This document shows, one piece after another, positions 14,067 to 47,932 of a stretch of DNA of 64,000 nucleotides (positions within the stretch are counted from its first letter, which is position 1; the number at the start of each line of letters is the position of its first letter). The translations under genes were made by a program, and so were the position numbers. Below the pieces are notes generated by a model that searched no databases, had not been told where the DNA came from, and saw only the letters and a list, made by a program, of their open reading frames with translations. Source of the stretch: Actinomadura rayongensis (lineage in GTDB: Bacteria > Actinomycetota > Actinomycetes > Streptosporangiales > Streptosporangiaceae); NCBI RefSeq assembly GCF_009831215.1, contig NZ_WUTW01000004.1:186001-250000 (forward strand). The letters are read 5' to 3'.

Positions 14067-16448
14067 ATGCGAGCCGGTCAAGTCAAGCCCCCGTCCGGAA
14101 ATAATTCCGAAGCGGCCCGTGCCGCGGCCCTGGCCACCGAGCAGCAGCAGGTCGCACGTGTCTACGCCCGTCTCGACGCCGAGCGCCGCACCGCCGAGCA
14201 CGCCGTCGCGGCCGGACCCGGCCAGGGCGGCGGCGCGGGCTTCCAGGCCAAGGTGGAGCGGGAGACGGCCGTGACCGAGGCCGCGCGCCGCCTCGCCCGG
14301 CTGAACGGCGTCGAGCGCGCGCTCTGCTTCGGCCGCATCGACCACCGCGGCACCGCCGAGGAGCCCGGCGACACCTTCTACATCGGCCGGATCGGCCTGC
14401 GCGACGACGACCGCGAGCCGTTGCTCATCGATTGGCGCGCGGCGGCGGCGCGGCCCTTCTACACCGCGACCGCGAGCGACCCGGGCACGCTCGCGCGCCG
14501 CCGCCACCTGCATTTGCGCGACCGGACCGTCCGGCGCGTGGACGACGAGGTGTTCGACCTGGACGGCCTGCGCCCCGGCGACCGGTCGGCGATCGTCGGC
14601 GAGGCGGCGCTGCTGGCCGCGCTGCGCCGGGGCCGCACCGGGCGGATGGGCGACGTCGTCGCGACGATCCAGGAGGAGCAGGACCAGGTCATCCGGTCCG
14701 GGCTGCAAGGAGTGCTGGTCGTCCAGGGCGGGCCGGGCACCGGGAAGACCGTCGCGGCGCTGCACCGCGCGGCGTACCTGCTCTACACCTACCGGGACGT
14801 GCTGGAGCGGCGCGGCGTCCTGATCATCGGGCCGAACACGACGTTCCTGCGGTACATCGAGCAGGTGCTGCCGGGGCTCGGCGAGACCGACGTCGCGCTC
14901 GCGACCGTCGGGGAGCTGTACCCGGGCGTGCGGGCCGTCGCCGAGGACGCGCCCGCCGTCGCCGTCGTCAAGGGCGACGCGCGGATGGCCGGTCTGATCG
15001 AGACGGCCGTGCGGGAGCGGCAGCGCGTCCCCGACGGCGGGCTGACCGTCGACGCGGACGGGCTGACGCTGCACGCCGACGAGGACGCCTGCCGCCGCGC
15101 GCGGGACCGGGCGCGGGCGCTGCGCGCGGCGCACAACGTGCAGCGGCGGATGTTCGTCAACGAGGTCCTGGACGCGTTGGCGGCCGACCGGGCGCGGCAG
15201 TACGACGCGCTCGCCGACGAGCCGATCGAGCAGATGAAGCGGGAGGGGAACGTCCCGGCATGGCTGCTGGAGCTGATCGTCAACGCCGACGAGAACCCCA
15301 TCCTGGACCCCGAGGACGTGCGGCTGTCCAAGGAGATGCTGTGGGAGCAGCCCGCCGTCCGGTCCGCGATCGACGCGCTGTGGCCGGAGCTGACGCCCGA
15401 GCGCCTGCTGACGACCCTGTTCGCCGACCCCGCCGCGCTGCGCCAGGCGGGTGGCGCGTTCGATGCTTCCGAGCTGGAGCTGCTGCACCGCGACCCGTCC
15501 GCGCCGTGGACGGTCGCGGACGTCCCGCTGCTGGACGAGGCCGCCGAACACCTTGGGCACGACGACCCGGAGGAGCGCGCCCGCGCCCGCGCCGCCGCCG
15601 CCGAACGCGCGGCCGACGAGCGGTACGCGCGCGAGGTGCTGGAGTCGGCGGGCGTCGACGCCGACCTGGTGGACGCCGCCGAGCTGGCCGCCCGCAACGC
15701 CGACGACGGCCCGCAGCGGACGACCGCCGAGCGCGCCGCCGCCGACCGCTCGTGGGCGTACGGCCACGTGATCGTGGACGAGGCGCAGGAGCTGTCGGCG
15801 ATGGCGTGGCGCGCGGTGATGCGCCGCGTTCCCACCCGCTCTTTGACGGTCGTCGGCGATGTGGCGCAGACCGGGAGCCCGGCGGGCGCTGCGTCCTGGG
15901 GCGAGATGCTCGACCCGTACGTGCCGGGCCGCTGGCGCGAGCACCGGCTGACCGTCAACTACCGGACCCCGGCGGCGATCATGCGCCTGGCGACTCGTCT
16001 GCTCGCCCAGGTCGCCCCCGACCAGACCCCGCCGGCCCCGGTCCGCGACGACGGCCCGCCCCCGGCCCTGATCCCCGTCTCCCCCGCCGACCTCCCCACC
16101 CGTCTCCCCGAACTCGTCACCGCCGAGCTGGCCGAGATCATCAGCGAGGGCGACGACACGGCGGGCCGCCTGGCCGTCATCGTCTCCCCGGCCCACCACG
16201 CGGCCGTCCTCGCGGCCCTCCCCGAAGCCGGCGCGGGCACGACCCCCGAAGCCCTGGACGCCCCCGCCGTCGTCCTCACCCCGTCCGAGGCGAAGGGCCT
16301 CGAATTCGACTCGGTGATCGTCGTGGACCCGGCGGGGATCCTGGCGGCGTCCGCGCGCGGCGGCCAGGACCTCTATGTGGCCCTGACCCGCCCCACCCGC
16401 CGTCTGACGATCGTCCACGACGACGACCTTCCCGACGTGTTGGGCTGA
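14067..16448 (+). CDS. helD: HelD-like UvrD-family helicase, RNA polymerase recycling motor
   Basis: A 794-residue protein. ATG 14067 is chosen because the N-terminal coiled coil typical of HelD (LATEQQQVARVYARLDAER) begins 23 residues later and GAGGAG lies 12 nt upstream; an earlier ATG at 13953 is possible. GGPGTGKT (221-228) is Walker A, VIVDEAQELS Walker B, VVGDVAQTGSP motif III, and LTVNYRTP with AKGLEFDSVIV and LYVALTRPTRRL are later SF1 motifs. HelD proteins pry DNA and RNA from stalled RNA polymerase with ATP and in some actinobacteria protect against rifampicin. An AT-richer leader (13985-14066) lies in front, fitting a regulated promoter. It converges on the small STAND-partner gene over a strong hairpin. 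Confidence 0.87.
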   Translation: MRAGQVKPPSGNNSEAARAAALATEQQQVARVYARLDAERRTAEHAVAAGPGQGGGAGFQAKVERETAVTEAARRLARLNGVERALCFGRIDHRGTAEEPGDTFYIGRIGLRDDDREPLLIDWRAAAARPFYTATASDPGTLARRRHLHLRDRTVRRVDDEVFDLDGLRPGDRSAIVGEAALLAALRRGRTGRMGDVVATIQEEQDQVIRSGLQGVLVVQGGPGTGKTVAALHRAAYLLYTYRDVLERRGVLIIGPNTTFLRYIEQVLPGLGETDVALATVGELYPGVRAVAEDAPAVAVVKGDARMAGLIETAVRERQRVPDGGLTVDADGLTLHADEDACRRARDRARALRAAHNVQRRMFVNEVLDALAADRARQYDALADEPIEQMKREGNVPAWLLELIVNADENPILDPEDVRLSKEMLWEQPAVRSAIDALWPELTPERLLTTLFADPAALRQAGGAFDASELELLHRDPSAPWTVADVPLLDEAAEHLGHDDPEERARARAAAAERAADERYAREVLESAGVDADLVDAAELAARNADDGPQRTTAERAAADRSWAYGHVIVDEAQELSAMAWRAVMRRVPTRSLTVVGDVAQTGSPAGAASWGEMLDPYVPGRWREHRLTVNYRTPAAIMRLATRLLAQVAPDQTPPAPVRDDGPPPALIPVSPADLPTRLPELVTAELAEIISEGDDTAGRLAVIVSPAHHAAVLAALPEAGAGTTPEALDAPAVVLTPSEAKGLEFDSVIVVDPAGILAASARGGQDLYVALTRPTRRLTIVHDDDLPDVLG

Positions 16449-16488: not shown

Positions 16489-16833
16489 TCACGGCCACAG
16501 GTTCATCAGCGCGGCCGTCACCACGCCCCCGGCGCCGCCCTCCAGGACGGCGCGCAGCGAGTTCCCGAGCGCGCGCAGCCGTCCCCGGTCGGGCGCGGGC
16601 TCCTGCGCCTCGGCGACGATCCGCTCGGCGATCTGCCGGGCGATGTCCTCCGACGGGCCGAGGTCCAGTTCCGGCAGCCGGTCCCGGACCGTCCGCGCGA
16701 AGGCGGCCAGCGCCTCCGTGTCGTCGCCCGCCGCGTTCATGACGACGTCGTTGCCGTCGCCGACGACGATCTGCGCCCGCTGCACCGGGCCGTCGATCCG
16801 CACGCGGTGCCCGCGCGGTTCCCGCTCCGTCAT
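16489..16833 (-). CDS. Small partner of the STAND ATPase, shared N-terminal beta module
   Basis: A 114-residue protein with ATG 16833, 17 bp after the STAND gene, so co-transcribed. Residues 12-34 (RIDGPVQ then RAQIVVGDGNDVVMNA) closely match residues 8-24 of the upstream ATPase (RVDGQVVVGDYNCVINA). Residues 40-80 are helical and acidic (ALAAFARTVRDRLPELDLG), and the end (LRALGNSLRAVLEGGAGGVV) recalls helical tails of small actinomycete proteins found next to predicted NTP-dependent conflict genes. No catalytic residues are seen. It is probably an adaptor or regulator that binds the ATPase through the shared module; this is inference. Confidence 0.65.
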   Translation of the reverse strand: MTEREPRGHRVRIDGPVQRAQIVVGDGNDVVMNAAGDDTEALAAFARTVRDRLPELDLGPSEDIARQIAERIVAEAQEPAPDRGRLRALGNSLRAVLEGGAGGVVTAALMNLWP

Positions 16834-16850
16834 TCGTTGCCCTCTTCCTC

Positions 16851-19265
16851 TCACGGGGTCGCGCTCGGACGCGGCTGGACGTGGAGCGCAACGTCGGTCT
16901 TGCGGCCCGACGCCCACTGTGAGATGTGGACGTCGAGTCTCCCGTTCCGCGCGTCGTCGGGCACGTGGAGCATGAACTCGATCGTGCCGTCGTCGCGTGC
17001 GGACGTCGTGAGGCCGAAGCCGGAACAGCTCCACTCGACGTTCCAGCCGGGAGCGAAGCCGGTCCCGGTGATCGTGACCGTGTCGCCGGGATGCACGGGG
17101 TCGCGGTCGGCCCGGGCGGCAAGTCGTCCGATCCCCTGCACCGGCCGGTAGTGCGCGGTCGCGGCGGCCTCGCGTTTCGAGGTCAGCCCTTCGGCATGGA
17201 CCATCACATTCCGGTTCCCGTTCGCCCATCCGTCGCCGAACACGGCGACCGCGACGCCCGAGGCGTTCGCCTCGGCATCGCCGCCCGCGCCGCCGTGCCC
17301 GTAGCGCGTCATGCCCATGTAGAAAATGACGGTTTCGCCGGGTTTGAAGCCCGACGCGGTCGCCTGGATCGGGTCGCCGAACCGGGGCGCGGACGGGCTC
17401 AGCCGCAGCGCCGGAGCGCCGAGGTCGGCCGCGCCCTCGACGGTCAGCGGGGCCGACGCGTCGCGGCCGGACCGCTGCCCCGTCGCCCGGATCGTGTAGC
17501 GGCCCGGGTCGGTCGCCGCGCGGACGTCCGCCTCGGCGGTCCCGTCGCGGTCGGCCGTGAGCGTCTCGGCCCGGCCCGACGCCGGTCCCGTCCACGAGAG
17601 GACGACCGTTTCGCCCGGTTCCATCCCGCCGACGCGCGCCCCGTAGTGAGCCCCGGCCTTCACCGACGCGACCGACAGGCGCAGCCACGCGTCCGACGGG
17701 CTCATCGTCGCGGACGGCGTCGTCCGCGACCAGGACGGCACCGGCGCCGCCACGGGGCCGTGGACGCGCGGCGGGGGTCCGTCGTCGCGCGCGGCGGCGG
17801 CCACGCCGAGCCCGGCGACCGTCAAGGCCAGGACGGTCGCCGCGCCGAACGCCACCGGGTGCGCCGACACCACGCCGCCGCCCTTCGCGCCGAGCAGCGC
17901 GAGCAGGCCCCCCGCCGCCGCGCCGCCCGCCGCCGTCGCGCCCGCCAGGCCCAGCACGCGCTTGCGGACGTTCTCCTCGTGCCGGAAGTAGTGCAGGTCG
18001 TCGGCCGAGTTCAGCTCCCGCGCGGCGACGAGCCCGAGCGCGAGGACCGTCCGCCACGACCCCCAGCGCAGCGACCGCTGGAGCGCGGGGGCGGCGGCGC
18101 GGGCGAGGTCGCGGGCCGCCTCGTGCGCGCCGCGCTCGACCGCCGCCGCCAGCAGCCGCGTCACGACCGCCGCCTCGTCGGCGATCTCGCGCGCGGACGC
18201 CGTGGCCGCCCAGTCCGCGAGCCGCCGGAAGTACAGCGCGAGGTCGTCGGCGGACGGGCTCGGCCGGTCGGTTCCGTCGTCGTCGGGCGGTGGGACGCTC
18301 CGGTACGCGCCCCGGGTGGGCACGGCGAGTTCGGCGGCGGCCAGCCGCTCGAGGATCCGGCCGGCGTCCTCGGCCTCCGCGCCGGTCAGCGCGGCGAGCA
18401 GCGCGGCCGACAGCGGCGCGGCGTCCAGCAGCGACAGGACGAGCAGGGCCTCGCGGGCCGCGCCGTCCAGCCCGTCCACCAGCGCGCGGGTCACGACGGC
18501 CGGGTCGGGCTCGAACGCGGGCCCGCCGTCCGCGCCGCGGGCCGCGTCGACGGCCCGGCGCAGCGCCCGCGGATGGCCGGACGCGGCCCGGCACAGGTCC
18601 CGTGCGGGCGCGCGCTCCTCGTCCCGCAGCGAACGGCCCAGTTCCGCCTCGATCAGGGCGAGCGCGGCGTCCTCGCCGAGTCCGGTCAGTTCCAGCGACG
18701 CGCCGCTGCCGCCCAGGCACGGACGGCGCGTCGCGAGGACCAGGTCGCCCCCGGGCGTGGCGGCGAGCAGCCGGTCGACGTTCTCCGCCGAGCCCGCGAA
18801 GTCGTCGACGAGGAACAGCGCGTCCACCTCGCCCATCAACCGGCCCAGCCGCGCCGGGTCGGGCTGGTAGTCGTCCGCGTCATAGCAGGCGACGAACAGC
18901 TTGCGCAGCACGTCGTCCACCGGAAGACCCGACGCCGACAGATACACCACGTGCCGTCCCGCGGCGCGGCGGGCCTCGGCGAGTTCGCGCAGCAGCGCGG
19001 ACTTGCCGACGCCGGGCACGCCCCGAATCTCGACGGGCCGGTCGGCGGCGAGCCAGGCGTCCACCCGCGCGATCTCCACGTCCCGGCCGTGCGGCATAGC
19101 GCCCGTGCGAGGCAACCGATCCCCGCCAAGCTCGTCCCGAAGCGCCACCGGAGGCGGGCCGCCCCGGTGGACGGTCACCGTGGAGCCCTTCGCGGCGTTG
19201 ATGACGCAGTTGTAGTCGCCGACGACGACCTGGCCGTCGACACGACCGGTCCTGACCTTCGCCAT
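16851..19265 (-). CDS. Membrane-anchored STAND/AAA ATPase with three exported Ig-like repeats
   Basis: An 804-residue protein starting at ATG 19265. Residues 8-24 form a beta module (RVDGQVVVGDYNCVINA). GVPGVGKS (82-89) is Walker A, VDALFLVDDFAGS Walker B, and DLVLATRRPC a sensor-like strand, followed by winged-helix and helical parts. Two membrane segments (about 436-458 and 469-489) divide it. The rest (490-804) should lie outside and contains three beta-sandwich repeats with the pattern PGExV in the first two (VGGMEPGETVVLSW; ASGFKPGETVIFYM) and GTGFAPGWNVEW in the third. Such an inside-ATPase/outside-sensor layout suggests signalling across the membrane. It is followed by the small partner gene. 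Confidence 0.72.
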   Translation of the reverse strand: MAKVRTGRVDGQVVVGDYNCVINAAKGSTVTVHRGGPPPVALRDELGGDRLPRTGAMPHGRDVEIARVDAWLAADRPVEIRGVPGVGKSALLRELAEARRAAGRHVVYLSASGLPVDDVLRKLFVACYDADDYQPDPARLGRLMGEVDALFLVDDFAGSAENVDRLLAATPGGDLVLATRRPCLGGSGASLELTGLGEDAALALIEAELGRSLRDEERAPARDLCRAASGHPRALRRAVDAARGADGGPAFEPDPAVVTRALVDGLDGAAREALLVLSLLDAAPLSAALLAALTGAEAEDAGRILERLAAAELAVPTRGAYRSVPPPDDDGTDRPSPSADDLALYFRRLADWAATASAREIADEAAVVTRLLAAAVERGAHEAARDLARAAAPALQRSLRWGSWRTVLALGLVAARELNSADDLHYFRHEENVRKRVLGLAGATAAGGAAAGGLLALLGAKGGGVVSAHPVAFGAATVLALTVAGLGVAAAARDDGPPPRVHGPVAAPVPSWSRTTPSATMSPSDAWLRLSVASVKAGAHYGARVGGMEPGETVVLSWTGPASGRAETLTADRDGTAEADVRAATDPGRYTIRATGQRSGRDASAPLTVEGAADLGAPALRLSPSAPRFGDPIQATASGFKPGETVIFYMGMTRYGHGGAGGDAEANASGVAVAVFGDGWANGNRNVMVHAEGLTSKREAAATAHYRPVQGIGRLAARADRDPVHPGDTVTITGTGFAPGWNVEWSCSGFGLTTSARDDGTIEFMLHVPDDARNGRLDVHISQWASGRKTDVALHVQPRPSATP

Positions 19266-19659: not shown

Positions 19660-20592
19660 TCAGGCCCCGGACGGGGACGGGATGTCGGTGCGGTCCAGGC
19701 CCGTGTCGGCGTAGGAGACCGGGTCCTCGATGGGTTCCAGGTGGGTCAGGACGGTGATGTGCGGGAGGGCCGTGCGGAGGGCCGCTTCCACCTCTTCGGC
19801 CTTGTCGTGGCCGCGTTGGACCGTCCAGGCGCCCGGGACGAGCAGGTGCAGCGACACGAAGCCTCGGCTGCCCGACTGGCGGGTGCGGACGGCGTGGAAG
19901 GCCACGCCCTCGCGCTCGAAGGCGGCCAGGACCTCGTTGATGCGGTCCTGTTCGTCGGTGTCCAGGGCGCGGTCCATCAGGCCCGCGCCCGAGCGGCGGA
20001 TCAGGTCCGTGCCCGTCCGGACGATGTTGACCGCTACCGCCAGCGCGATGAGCGGGTCCAGTTGGGACCAGCCTGTCAGGGCTACTGCGCCTACCGCCGC
20101 TACGACGCCTACCGACGTCCAGACGTCGGTGAGCAGGTGTTTTCCGTCGGCCTCCAGGGTGATCGAGCGGTGGCGGCGGCCGGCGCGCACCAGCAGCAGG
20201 CCCACCGCGAGGTTGAGCACGGACGCGGCCGTCGACACGAGCAGGCCGAGGCCCACCTGGTCGATCGGGTGCGGGTGCAGCAGGCGTTCCACGGCGGTGC
20301 CCGCGATCGCGACCGCCGCGACGAAGATCATCATGCCCTCGGCACCCGCCGAGAAGTACTCGGCCTTGGTGTGGCCGTGCGGGTGCTCCTCGTCGGCGGG
20401 CTTGCTCGCCCAGCGCAGCGCGCCGAGCGCGACCACGGCCGCGACCAGGTTGACGACGGACTCCAGCGCGTCCGACAGCAGCCCGACCGAACCGGTCACC
20501 AGGTAGGCGACGGTCTTCAGCGCGATCGTCGCGACGGCCGCCGCGACCGACAGCCACAGCAGCCGGAACAGTCGGCTCTCCGAACGGTCCAT
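19660..20592 (-). CDS. Cation diffusion facilitator family metal transporter
   Basis: A 310-residue protein starting at ATG 20592. It has six predicted membrane segments. SDALESVVN in the second and GKHLLTDVWTS in the fifth supply the metal-site Asp/His residues, and EEHPHGHTKAEYFSAG is the conserved loop of the family. The C-terminal cytoplasmic domain (about 215-300) has the alpha-beta fold used for dimerisation (HAVRTRQSGSRGFVSLHLLV). It exports divalent cations (Zn, Co, Fe or Mn) against protons. It starts 3 bp after the GNAT gene, so it is in the same transcript. Confidence 0.92.
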   Translation of the reverse strand: MDRSESRLFRLLWLSVAAAVATIALKTVAYLVTGSVGLLSDALESVVNLVAAVVALGALRWASKPADEEHPHGHTKAEYFSAGAEGMMIFVAAVAIAGTAVERLLHPHPIDQVGLGLLVSTAASVLNLAVGLLLVRAGRRHRSITLEADGKHLLTDVWTSVGVVAAVGAVALTGWSQLDPLIALAVAVNIVRTGTDLIRRSGAGLMDRALDTDEQDRINEVLAAFEREGVAFHAVRTRQSGSRGFVSLHLLVPGAWTVQRGHDKAEEVEAALRTALPHITVLTHLEPIEDPVSYADTGLDRTDIPSPSGA

Positions 20593-44305: not shown

Positions 44306-44402
44306 CCCGTCATATCGCCGCGTTCCGGCCGTGTCGACGTTTGGCCCTCCTTCCTCGGGTGATCAAGACTGCGACGGCGGTCCCCGGACGAAGGAGGGCG
44401 CG

Positions 44403-45932
44403 GTGCAACTCCTGCGCACCAAGACGGTCGAACAGTCGATCCGCGACACCGAGGAGCCCGAGCACCGGCTCCGCCGCGATCTGTCGGCGCTCGACCTGAC
44501 CGTCTTCGGCGTGGGCGTCATCATCGGCACCGGGATCTTCGTCCTCACCGGCCAGGTCGCCAAGGAGAAGGCCGGGCCCGCCGTCGCGATCTCCTTCATC
44601 CTCGCCGCCGTCGTCTGCGGCCTGGCCGCGCTCTGCTACGCCGAGTTCTCCTCGACCGTCCCGGTCGCCGGATCGGCCTACACGTTTTCCTACGCCACGC
44701 TCGGCGAGTTCCCCGCCTGGATCATCGGCTGGGACCTCATCCTCGAACTGGCCCTCGGCGCGGCCGTCGTCGCCGTCGGCTGGTCCGGGTACGCCGCGTC
44801 GCTGCTGGACACCATCGGGGCGCCGCTGCCCGCCGCGATCAGCCATCCGCCCGGCGAGCACGGCGGCGTCGTCAACGTCCCGGCGATCCTGCTGGTCTTC
44901 GCCGTCACGATCCTGCTGGTCACGGGCACGAAGGTGTCCTCGCGGGTCAACGCCGTCGTCGTCGGGATCAAGGTCGCGGTGGTCTTCCTCGTGATCATCG
45001 CCGGGCTGTTCTTCGTCAAGGGCGCCAACTACACGCCGTTCATCCCGCCGGAGAAGACCACCGGTTCGGTGTCGGGCGGCGGGGCGCCGCTGATCCAGGT
45101 CCTGTTCGGGATCCCGCCGGTCGCGTTCGGCTGGCTCGGGATCTTCGCCGCCGTCGCCGTCGTGTTCTTCGCCTACATCGGGTTCGACGTCGTCGCGACC
45201 GCCGCCGAGGAGGCCCGCAACCCCCAGCGCGACGTCCCGATCGGGCTGATCGGCTCGCTCGTCGTCACGGCCGTGCTGTACGCGGTCGTGTCGCTCGTCG
45301 TGGTCGGGATGCAGAACTACAAACAGCTCAGCGCGGACGCGCCGCTCGCGGACGCGTTCCGGGCCGTCGGCCACCCCGGGTTCGCGACGGTCATCAGCAT
45401 CGGCGCGGTCGCGGGCCTCACGACCGTCGTGCTCATCCTGCTGCTCGGGCAGAGCCGGGTGTTCTTCGCGATGAGCCGGGACGGGCTGCTGCCCGCCTGG
45501 CTCGCCACCGTCCACCCCCGGTTCGGCACGCCCTACCGCTCCACGATCCTCATGGGCGCGATCGTCGCGGTGCTGTCGGGCTTCATCCCGCTCGCCAAGC
45601 TCGCCGAACTCGTCAACATCGGGACGCTGTTCGCGTTCTGCCTGGTGTCGGTGGGCGTGGTGATCCTGCGCCGCACCCGTCCCGACCTGCACCGGGCGTT
45701 CCGCGCGCCGTTCGTCCCGGTGGTGCCCGCGCTCGCCATGCTCGGGTGTCTTTTCGTGATGCTCAACCTTCCCCTGGAGACATGGTTGCGGTTCGTGGCC
45801 TGGATGGTCCTCGGGACCGTCCTGTATCTCGCGTACGGCTACCGGCACAGCCGTGTGGGGCTTGCGCGCACCCCCGCCGCCACCCCCACCGACCCGCTGA
45901 GCGGCACATCTCCCATCGACCCGGTCGGTTGA
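44403..45932 (+). CDS. APC-family amino acid permease
   Basis: A 509-residue membrane protein; GTG 44403 follows AAGGAGGG. It has about 12 membrane segments. The first has the substrate motif GVGVIIGTGIFVLTG; FFAYIGFDVVATAAEEARNPQRDVP in segment 6-7 is typical of the cationic amino-acid transporter (YfnA/CAT) group. The order of segments and length are normal. It probably imports amino acids by proton symport; the substrate cannot be named. It stands alone between a terminator and fprA. Confidence 0.9.
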   Translation: MQLLRTKTVEQSIRDTEEPEHRLRRDLSALDLTVFGVGVIIGTGIFVLTGQVAKEKAGPAVAISFILAAVVCGLAALCYAEFSSTVPVAGSAYTFSYATLGEFPAWIIGWDLILELALGAAVVAVGWSGYAASLLDTIGAPLPAAISHPPGEHGGVVNVPAILLVFAVTILLVTGTKVSSRVNAVVVGIKVAVVFLVIIAGLFFVKGANYTPFIPPEKTTGSVSGGGAPLIQVLFGIPPVAFGWLGIFAAVAVVFFAYIGFDVVATAAEEARNPQRDVPIGLIGSLVVTAVLYAVVSLVVVGMQNYKQLSADAPLADAFRAVGHPGFATVISIGAVAGLTTVVLILLLGQSRVFFAMSRDGLLPAWLATVHPRFGTPYRSTILMGAIVAVLSGFIPLAKLAELVNIGTLFAFCLVSVGVVILRRTRPDLHRAFRAPFVPVVPALAMLGCLFVMLNLPLETWLRFVAWMVLGTVLYLAYGYRHSRVGLARTPAATPTDPLSGTSPIDPVG

Positions 45933-45974
45933 CCCGGGGTGCGGTGACGCTCTGCGCCTGTGCACAATGCCCGC

Positions 45975-47324
45975 ATGGTGGATCCTGTGCGCGTCGCAGT
46001 CATCGGGTCGGGCCCGGCTGGGCTCTACTCCGCCGAAGCACTCGTCAAGCAGTCCGGGGGGACGGTCCGCGTCGACGTCATCGACCGGCTCCCGACGCCG
46101 TACGGCCTCGTCCGGTACGGCGTCGCCCCCGACCACACCTCGATCAAGTCGATCGCCCGCTACCTCCAGCGCGTCCTGGAGGACAACGCCGTCCGGTTCC
46201 TCGGCTGCCTCGAACTCGGCACCGACATCACCCGTGAGGACCTGCTGAGCTGCTACGACGCCGTCGTCTACGCGACCGGCGCGATGGTGGACCGGCGCCT
46301 CGGCGTCCCCGGCGAGGACCTGCCCGGCAGCGTCGCCGCCACCGACTTCGTCAACTGGTACTGCGGCCACCCCGACGCCGCCGACCACGCCTTCGACCTC
46401 GGCGTCGAGGACGTCGCGGTCATCGGCGTCGGGAACGTCGCCGTGGACGTCGTGCGGATCCTCGCCAAGTCCGCCGACGAGCTGCGCTCCACCGACGTCC
46501 CGCAGCAGGTGCTCGACGCCCTGGCCGCCAGCCGCGTCCGGCGCGTCCACCTCATCGGGCGGCGCGGCCCCGCGCAGGCCAAGTTCACCACCAAGGAGGC
46601 CCGCGAGCTGGGCGAACTGCCCGGCGCCGGGATCCACGTCGACCCCGCCGACCTCGCGCTCGACCCCGCCGACGCGGCGCACGCCGAGCGGGACCGCAAG
46701 GTGCGCGGCAACCTCGCCGTCCTCGCCGGGTGGACCGGCGAGCCGCCGGCGGACCGGCCGCGCCGCATCGACGTGCGGTTCTGGCGCGCGCCCGTCGAGA
46801 TCGTCGGCACCGGCCGCGTCGAGGCGCTGCGGCTGGAGCGCACCCGCCCCGACGGCGCCGGACGCGTCGTCGGCACCGGGGAGTTCGAGACGCTGCCCGC
46901 CGGGCTCGTGCTGCGCTCGGTCGGGTACCAGAGCGTCCCGCTGCCGGGCGTGCCGTTCGACGAGCGGGCGTCGATCGTCCCCAACGACGGCGGGCGCGTC
47001 GTCGGCCCGGACGGCGCGCCCGTCCCCCGCGAGTACGTCGCGGGCTGGGTCAAGCGCGGCCCGACCGGCGTCGTCGGCACCAACAAGTCCGACGCGGCCG
47101 AGACCGTCGCCCGCCTGCTCGCCGACCTGGAGAAGGAGCGGCCCGCCGCGCCCGTCCGCAGCGTCGAGGACCTGCTCGCCGAGCGCGGCCTCGCCACGGT
47201 CGCCTACCGGGACTGGCTGAACCTCGACGCGGCCGAGCAGGAGCTGGCCCGCTCGCTCGGGCGCGGCGAACGCGTGAAGCTCGCCCGCTGGGACGCCATG
47301 CGCGCCGCGTGCACCCCGACCTGA
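45975..47324 (+). CDS. fprA: NADPH-ferredoxin reductase, FprA type
   Basis: A 449-residue flavoprotein starting at ATG 45975. VAVIGSGPAGLYSAEAL (7-23) binds FAD, and VAVIGVGNVAVDVVRIL is the NADPH-binding fold. RLPTPYGLVRYGVAPDHTSIKSI, RGPAQAKFTTKEARELGEL and WVKRGPTGVVGTNKSDAAETV are blocks shared with mycobacterial FprA and adrenodoxin reductase. It passes electrons from NADPH to ferredoxins, for example for P450 or Fe-S enzymes. A 17-bp inverted repeat and GC-rich direct repeats follow. Confidence 0.94.
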   Translation: MVDPVRVAVIGSGPAGLYSAEALVKQSGGTVRVDVIDRLPTPYGLVRYGVAPDHTSIKSIARYLQRVLEDNAVRFLGCLELGTDITREDLLSCYDAVVYATGAMVDRRLGVPGEDLPGSVAATDFVNWYCGHPDAADHAFDLGVEDVAVIGVGNVAVDVVRILAKSADELRSTDVPQQVLDALAASRVRRVHLIGRRGPAQAKFTTKEARELGELPGAGIHVDPADLALDPADAAHAERDRKVRGNLAVLAGWTGEPPADRPRRIDVRFWRAPVEIVGTGRVEALRLERTRPDGAGRVVGTGEFETLPAGLVLRSVGYQSVPLPGVPFDERASIVPNDGGRVVGPDGAPVPREYVAGWVKRGPTGVVGTNKSDAAETVARLLADLEKERPAAPVRSVEDLLAERGLATVAYRDWLNLDAAEQELARSLGRGERVKLARWDAMRAACTPT

Positions 47325-47330
47325 GCCCCG

Positions 47331-47420
47331 TCCGAGCCGCGTGCGGGCCGCAGTCCGAGCCGCAGTCCGAGCGCCGTCCGAGCCGCGCCCGGGCCGCAAT
47401 TCGAGCGCCGTCCGGGCGGC
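47331..47420. repeat. GC-rich degenerate direct repeats
   Basis: TCCGAGCCGC occurs at 47331, 47354 and 47377, with the variants TCCGAGCGCC at 47366 and TTCGAGCGCC at about 47400. Spacing is 11-12 bp or its double. It lies just after the fprA stop. No function is evident. Confidence 0.6.
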
Positions 47421-47465
47421 GGCCGAGGCGCGTTCCGCGCGGGGGACGGCGACACGCCGGTCCCG

Positions 47466-47513
47466 GCCGTGGATCGGTCGGCCGGACGGGCGCTCCGCCG
47501 ACCGATCCACGGC
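47466..47513. terminator. 17-bp perfect inverted repeat, probable terminator
   Basis: GCCGTGGATCGGTCGGC (47466-47482) and GCCGACCGATCCACGGC (47497-47513) form a perfect stem with a 14-nt loop. It lies between fprA and the small gene at 47567, both rightward. It lacks a T-tract; it could also be a large operator for the downstream gene, whose start is 53 bp away. Confidence 0.6.
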
Positions 47514-47566
47514 GCGCCAGCGGGGAACATGTGACGTGGACCGCACCAGGGCGCTACGGTGCGCGT

Positions 47567-47932
47567 GTGACCGACGGTCCAGAGCTGCTCGGATTTCCGC
47601 CGCCCGCCGCGCTGCCCGACCTGCGCTGGCTCGGCCCGGACTATGTCGCCGTGCTGGTCGGCGACCTGACCCGGGGCCTGCTGCGCCAGGACGCCGGCAC
47701 GCGCGTCATGGGCGTGCGGTGCGCAGGCGAGCCCGACCTGCGCGCGTCCGTCGACGCGGCCGGGGTGATCCGGTCCCACGACGCCCGCTTCGAGCTGCAG
47801 GTGTTCGTCCAGGACGGCGCGGGACGCCCCTGGCGGCTGCGCGGCCACTGGACGTACTCCGGCCGCGACCTCGGCACCGAGGCCGCGTCCGTCACCCACT
47901 CCTGGCGGCTCAGCGACGCCGAGGGCGTGTGA
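47567..47932 (+). CDS. Hypothetical protein
   Basis: A 121-residue protein from GTG 47567; no strong Shine-Dalgarno site is seen. The N-terminus is Pro/Leu-rich (LLGFPPPAALPDLRWLGPDYVAVLVGDL). The middle and end read as alternating strands (FELQVFVQDGAGRPWRLRGHWTYSGRDLG). No family was recognised, and no membrane segment or signal is present. It converges on dxs with 38 bp between stops. Confidence 0.55.
   Translation: MTDGPELLGFPPPAALPDLRWLGPDYVAVLVGDLTRGLLRQDAGTRVMGVRCAGEPDLRASVDAAGVIRSHDARFELQVFVQDGAGRPWRLRGHWTYSGRDLGTEAASVTHSWRLSDAEGV

Follow-up and report, generated by a model that had tools for sequence, protein, structure and literature searches.

We analysed a 64,000-nt stretch of the genome of Actinomadura rayongensis (assembly GCF_009831215.1, contig NZ_WUTW01000004.1, positions 186,001 to 250,000; hereafter the window), and in it a pair of neighbouring genes that encode an 804-residue ATPase of the STAND/NLR type (the receptor) and a 114-residue partner. 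A preliminary description of this DNA had the coordinates, strand and sizes of both genes right. The receptor stop codon and the start of the small gene are separated by a 17-nt gap that holds a good ribosome-binding site. Both proteins carry the same short motif near their N-termini. The genes and these elements are, in window coordinates:

16851 to 19265, minus strand: STAND/NLR receptor gene, 804 aa (ATG at 19265, stop at 16851; open frame with conserved homologues)
19194 to 19256, minus strand: receptor-side motif, residues 4–24 (VRTGRVDGQVVVGDYNCVINA), co-varying residue V9 (genome-wide profile match, E 3.1e-8)
16841 to 16850, minus strand: ribosome-binding site GAGGAAGAGG of the small gene (from the sequence)
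16489 to 16833, minus strand: small partner gene, 114 aa, predicted effector (open frame; homologues adjoin NLR relatives)
16732 to 16806, minus strand: partner-side motif, residues 10–34 (RVRIDGPVQRAQIVVGDGNDVVMNA), co-varying residue V17 (genome-wide profile match, E 6.2e-6)

The shared motif and its co-variation

The two proteins had been proposed to share an N-terminal "beta module", and they do have a motif in common. Their N-termini, which align as RVDG-----QVVVGDYNCVINAAKG (first) over RIDGPVQRAQIVVGDGNDVVMNAAG, match with a Smith-Waterman score of 45 that was reached by 2e-4 of shuffles. A profile from other genomes, built without sequences from the source genome or its nearest relative, ranked the two proteins first and third among the 734 open reading frames (ORFs) of the window. 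Genome-wide the motif was confined to the two genes, the next match (E 1.4) being noise, with a profile that included both window sequences. The motif is about 23 residues long and rich in Gly, Asn and Val, with the consensus I-x-V-G-G-D-phi-x-G-x-phi-V-phi-G-D-x-N and, in a profile of 29 motifs, the core G-x-phi-V-phi-G-D-x-N. It does not appear to be a stably folded domain, however: AlphaFold gave low-confidence strands at the ATPase N-terminus and predicted disorder (pLDDT below 50) for residues 1–36 of the small protein, motif included, and the idea of a folded adaptor domain was dropped after these models. A Pfam search of the pair returned no effector-associated, Death-like or TRADD-N adaptor domain, and the adaptor of the effector-associated kind suggested earlier gives way to a short, RHIM/BASS3-like motif. 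A further, weak motif-like match in the window (44313 to 47705, 7.6 bits) was rejected as chance because reversed controls in another set reach 6.5 bits.

Bacterial amyloid signalling sequences (BASS) couple NLR–effector pairs and form ten families (Dyrka et al. 2020, as summarised in PMC7889193, PMC8086366 and PMC9815663). With one column deleted, the proven amyloid-forming BASS3 peptide of Frankia (ORT49035; PMC8086366) scored 23 bits against our motif, a value reached by 1e-4 of background and by 2e-4 of shuffled versions of the peptide itself. For the archaeal BASS3-like peptide AEB69175 the score was 11.6 bits ungapped, and Sigma-type control peptides scored like noise. Searching the PDB with the motif profile gave chance matches only and no RHIM structure. 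For comparison, the RHIM/PP core is G-phi-Q-phi-G (PMC7885112), and proline mutants of two BASS3 glutamines abolish foci (PMC9815663).

The preliminary description named absence of the pair from other genomes as a reason to doubt it; on the contrary, receptor relatives adjoin a motif-bearing gene in at least 27 actinobacterial genomes. The small protein has homologues in 11/65 genomes of the genus and, by profile, in 31/343 of the family, while receptor-core homologues (E <= 1e-30) occurred in 28/299 genomes of the order and 15/395 of the class; the family-level receptor search covered 201 genomes. The small protein alone as query gave no matches in a GTDB-based contig collection in which the receptor profile did find relatives. 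The pair is also present in Actinoallomurus and Kibdelosporangium. When neighbours were searched with a motif profile made from receptor N-termini only, the motif appeared in the adjacent ORF at most loci, with 7–30 bits vs 3.7 for reversed ORFs.

Within pairs the two copies of the motif co-vary. Over 18 pairs, motif similarity was 51.4 for cognate and 40.2 for mismatched combinations (200,000 permutations, p <= 5e-6). Column -7, the residue two places before the core-opening glycine (V9 in the receptor, V17 in the partner), takes six states (V, L, M, I, A and N) and is identical in 15/18 cognate pairs vs 20% of mismatched ones. On a tree built without the motif, sister lineages have switched in a matched manner (N/N in G218 vs V/V in G136; A/A in G016 vs V/V in G051), and effector classes are scattered. 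Two later pairs stood outside the test, one a match (G537, L/L) and one a mismatch (G441, I/V); a candidate pair split over two contigs (G037) would be a mismatch (L/A). Recurrence across genera and outside the order, together with co-variation within pairs, fits the homotypic binding suggested earlier, and coupling of receptor and partner by the motif is strongly supported.

Loss of the motif on one side also goes with its loss on the other. A motif-bearing neighbour was seen at 26/27 loci with an intact receptor motif vs 1/14 with an eroded one (Fisher p 1e-8, intact and eroded being assigned by hand from profile scores); as the eroded group is largely one Streptomyces-like clade, independent losses were few and the evidence is weaker than the p-value suggests. 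In a large Streptomyces-like genus, ten related receptors (L183–L192) retain only a remnant of the motif (LVAGDYLLTVNPVDGSEIEP), without a motif-bearing neighbour.

Exchange of partner domains

The slot beside the receptor is filled by different proteins in different relatives. A helical partner of the window type occurs in G000, G039, G038, G037, G019, G072 and G007; a second helical type in G295, G085, G122, G193, G196, G194, G191, G041 and G441; a Bell-like bundle with a C-terminal motif in G136, G133, G218 and G210; and a cyclase-like protein in G014, G016, G051, G109 and G334. The partner is a Ser/Thr kinase in G084 (PF00069, 2.9e-33), a nucleoside phosphorylase of the PNP_UDP type in Kibdelosporangium (PF01048, PNP_UDP_1, 2.6e-28) and a TIR protein in G537 (PF13676, TIR_2, 4.9e-14), the latter two with a C-terminal motif. 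Immune-type systems are known to use kinase, TIR and PNP_UDP as effector domains, which makes the slot of the 114-aa protein an effector slot. From its gene position, then, the small protein is probably the receptor's effector. The effector had been sought earlier in either the small protein or a distant gene; the first choice gains from this exchange, and the genome-wide motif search gave no support to the second.

Some of these partners merit separate mention. The kinase (L122, 6887–7836) has its RHIM-like motif at the N-terminus and adjoins an NLR, an arrangement reminiscent of RIP kinases. The TIR (L182, 1958–2683) and PNP_UDP (L154, 3930–4850) proteins carry the motif C-terminally, and the adjoining receptors carry it N-terminally. 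In G010 and G042 the receptor is a fusion with a cyclase-like domain ahead of its STAND core, and its motif is vestigial. The label "cyclase-like" denotes a sequence pattern recognised by eye, since the partner has no Pfam or PDB relative; the domain is possibly an undescribed effector related to nucleotidyl cyclases. One such gene (L118, 7011–7857) appears to be split over two overlapping frames, which may reflect a frameshift or a sequencing error. The domain recurs as follows:

L146, 6433 to 7272; L147, 5645 to 7417; L148, 2810 to 3772: cyclase-like domain in a motif-bearing partner
L143 and L145: cyclase-like domain fused to the receptor

Beyond its motif the small protein of the window is predicted to fold into a helical domain, with pLDDT 84–93 for most of its length:

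16504 to 16722, minus strand: four-helix C-terminal domain, residues 38–110, with a hydrophobic, Gly-rich last helix (VLEGGAGGVVTAALMNLW) (AlphaFold)

By profile comparison (hhalign, type-a domains, 92.7%) DUF5955-like domains are distant kin of this helical part, which showed no profile similarity to the Bell-like relatives. The type-a domain is also found at the end of larger proteins (L028, L031, L062, L064, L066 and L067), whose N-termini are winged-helix-like and whose motif is degenerate; no relative of the receptor was found beside them, and they may be regulators.

Receptor architecture and genomic setting

Neither the 804-aa ATPase nor the 114-aa protein gave a family match above cut-off in Pfam, NCBIfam or PADLOC. 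The receptor has the P-loop core, Walker A and B motifs (GVPGVGKS, residues 82–89; LFLVDD, residues 150–155), winged helix and helical region of an NLR/STAND protein. Its Pfam AAA, STAND and NACHT matches are all sub-threshold, and its core matches the STAND protein 6mfv (Foldseek, E 6e-8). AlphaFold places the P-loop core and winged helix first (pLDDT about 80–90), followed by helices, a low-confidence stretch with a predicted transmembrane segment, and beta-sandwiches:

18291 to 19088, minus strand: STAND NTPase core and winged helix, residues 60–325 (sequence, sub-threshold Pfam, AlphaFold, 6mfv)
17928 to 18251, minus strand: helical domain, residues 339–446, with a conserved RSLRWGSWR motif (alignment of relatives, AlphaFold)
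17892 to 17948, minus strand: Gly/Ala-rich hydrophobic segment, residues 440–458, borderline (KD 1.62; hydropathy)
17799 to 17855, minus strand: predicted transmembrane segment, residues 471–489 (hydropathy 2.06)
16878 to 17687, minus strand: tandem Ig-like beta-sandwich C-terminus, residues 527–796, predicted extracellular (AlphaFold strands, Foldseek, NCBIfam)

The preliminary description made no mention of the predicted membrane anchor or of the predicted tandem Ig-like C-terminus. For the latter, bacterial adhesins with tandem Ig-like repeats give the best Foldseek matches (E 1e-10), and NCBIfam NF058597 matches below cut-off. At the position of residues 471–489, relatives carry a strong hydrophobic segment and, after it, a P/S/T-rich linker. 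Beyond this segment the number of cysteines is even in 26/26 relatives counted (range 0–12), the pattern to be expected of extracellular disulfides. The inner part is conserved, whereas the C-terminal regions have diverged strongly from one lineage to the next, as sensors would be expected to do. On these predictions of topology and fold the receptor probably crosses the membrane with its tandem Ig-like domains outside, and would thus sense from outside to inside.

The pair is flanked by a cation-efflux gene and a HelD-like helicase gene, both in A. rayongensis and in its near relative G039. The same interval holds an aldehyde dehydrogenase and no receptor in G003, and the receptor pair is therefore accessory. 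The interval is variable: in G039 it contains XRE-type and DUF397-type genes plus the pair. PADLOC profiles detected no component of a known anti-phage system in the pair, with weak ATPase matches only, and the context of the locus gave no defence-island support for phage specificity. Elsewhere in the source genome (G000) there are twelve NACHT-type matches, none of which is the 804-aa receptor. The coordinates for this interval are:

Window, 19660 to 20592 and 14432 to 16448; L024, 2703 to 5000; L167, 7437 to 9070: variable interval between the cation-efflux and HelD-like helicase genes

Proposed mechanism, alternatives and known systems

We consider it likely that the two genes form an NLR–effector signalling pair, in which a membrane receptor acts on a helical effector through homotypic, probably amyloid-type templating. 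We infer that the external Ig-like domains of the membrane-anchored NLR would sense a ligand or wall damage, with the STAND core inside. Activation would lead to STAND oligomerisation and bring several receptor N-terminal motifs together; the cluster would nucleate the partner's motif of identical type by homotypic beta stacking, probably amyloid templating. The partner's helical domain, clustered at the membrane, would then act as effector, most likely by disrupting the membrane, and cell death or dormancy would follow.

Several observations weigh against this proposal. The motif core is G-x-phi-x-phi-G, not the G-phi-Q-phi-G of RHIM and BASS3, and both conserved BASS3 glutamines are absent from the 29-motif profile; since neither feature is conserved, we call the motif BASS3/RHIM-like and not BASS3, a putative assignment by sequence that compares it with BASS3 alone among the ten BASS families. 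By overall motif similarity the window pair is only 7th of 18, so it is the family, more than this one pair, that carries the co-variation signal. Foldseek against the PDB gave no significant fold match for the small protein, and its hydrophobic helix falls short of the length needed to call a transmembrane segment with confidence; the protein could therefore be an adaptor. Finally, the window receptor has a single ectodomain cysteine and a second, borderline hydrophobic segment, which makes its topology less sure.

The absence of the glutamines and of the exact core spacing would suit homotypic binding without amyloid by a conventional adaptor, folded or beta-arch, and strong co-variation at just one residue would likewise fit a defined dimer interface. 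We judge this rather unlikely for a motif so short and so rich in Gly, Asn and Val, which is predicted to be disordered alone and resembles peptides that bind Congo red. Unlikely too is that the small protein is an adaptor or regulator scaffolding the receptor oligomer, the real effector being another protein or the receptor's own membrane segment. The type-a and type-b helical domains indeed lack a recognised catalytic or pore fold, the partners in G298 and G109 are little more than motif, and related helical domains are fused to winged-helix-like proteins away from NLRs; against this, the slot holds complete effector domains in relatives, no third conserved gene was seen, and the source genome has no other clear motif carrier. 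It is quite improbable that the receptor is cytoplasmic, its hydrophobic segments forming a hairpin and its Ig-like domains facing an internal ligand: two such segments are found in the window protein and several relatives, but many relatives have one strong segment only, with P/S/T-rich linkers and even cysteine numbers of up to 12 beyond it. A toxin–antitoxin-like pair, in which the small protein restrains the receptor via the shared motif, would fit a small co-transcribed gene that precedes the receptor in several relatives, but is most improbable given that same-slot partners are enzymes typical of immune effectors and that the two genes differ in order and orientation between loci (they are divergent in G019 and G295).

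Typical NLRs sense intracellularly. Beyond the signalling pair itself, our confidence is evenly balanced on a wider proposal: an outside-in NLR family of filamentous actinobacteria in which a STAND switch that spans the membrane is combined with variable extracytoplasmic sensors, either Ig-like or disulfide-rich, and with a RHIM-like motif. Through the co-evolving specificity residue of this motif, each receptor would select its cognate effector among a common set (helical killer, kinase, TIR, PNP, cyclase-like), so that parallel pathways avoid cross-fire. Such a layout would give a single bacterial pair both recognition at the cell surface and death signalling of the amyloid type. With so many co-varying motif pairs available in nature, one-residue swaps would allow a test of how amyloid signalling motifs keep pathways apart.

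Among known systems, the pair resembles the predicted NTP-dependent conflict systems (PMC7159879, PMC8195603) in its STAND ATPase, its occurrence in multicellular bacteria and its exchangeable effectors recruited via homotypic modules; their effector-associated or TRADD-N/Death adaptors, in contrast, are folded domains with families of their own. The small protein is built like the small actinobacterial proteins of DUF5955 (PF19380), with a short N-terminal motif region and then a helical domain with a hydrophobic last helix, although it gives no PF19380 match itself up to E 1 in Pfam.

The likeness to BASS pairs, as the summarising papers describe them, extends to neighbouring NLR and effector genes with a common short motif at the NLR N-terminus, to filamentous actinobacteria as hosts, and to a range of effectors, with Bell-like helical and TIR domains among those of relatives; the motif moreover scores as a BASS3 peptide does. 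In the usual BASS form the effector has a Bell domain and a C-terminal motif, whereas the window partner has an N-terminal motif and no Bell domain. Four relatives do carry a Bell-like bundle with a C-terminal motif, a putative counterpart of that layout. Unlike BASS3, the motif core is one residue longer and lacks both conserved glutamines, and unlike BASS receptors as described in those papers, the receptor is predicted to be membrane-anchored with an extracytoplasmic Ig-like sensor.

As in the RHIM of RIPK1 and RIPK3 in animal necroptosis and the fungal PP motif of HELLP/PNT1 (PMC7885112), a short Gly/Val/Asn motif couples receptor to effector, though here with a G-x-phi-x-phi-G core and no conserved Gln. 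That kinase, TIR and phosphorylase effectors replace one another on a single receptor family speaks for an ancient link between the immune signalling of bacteria and that of eukaryotes, and the motif–kinase partner in G084 has a RIPK-like content.
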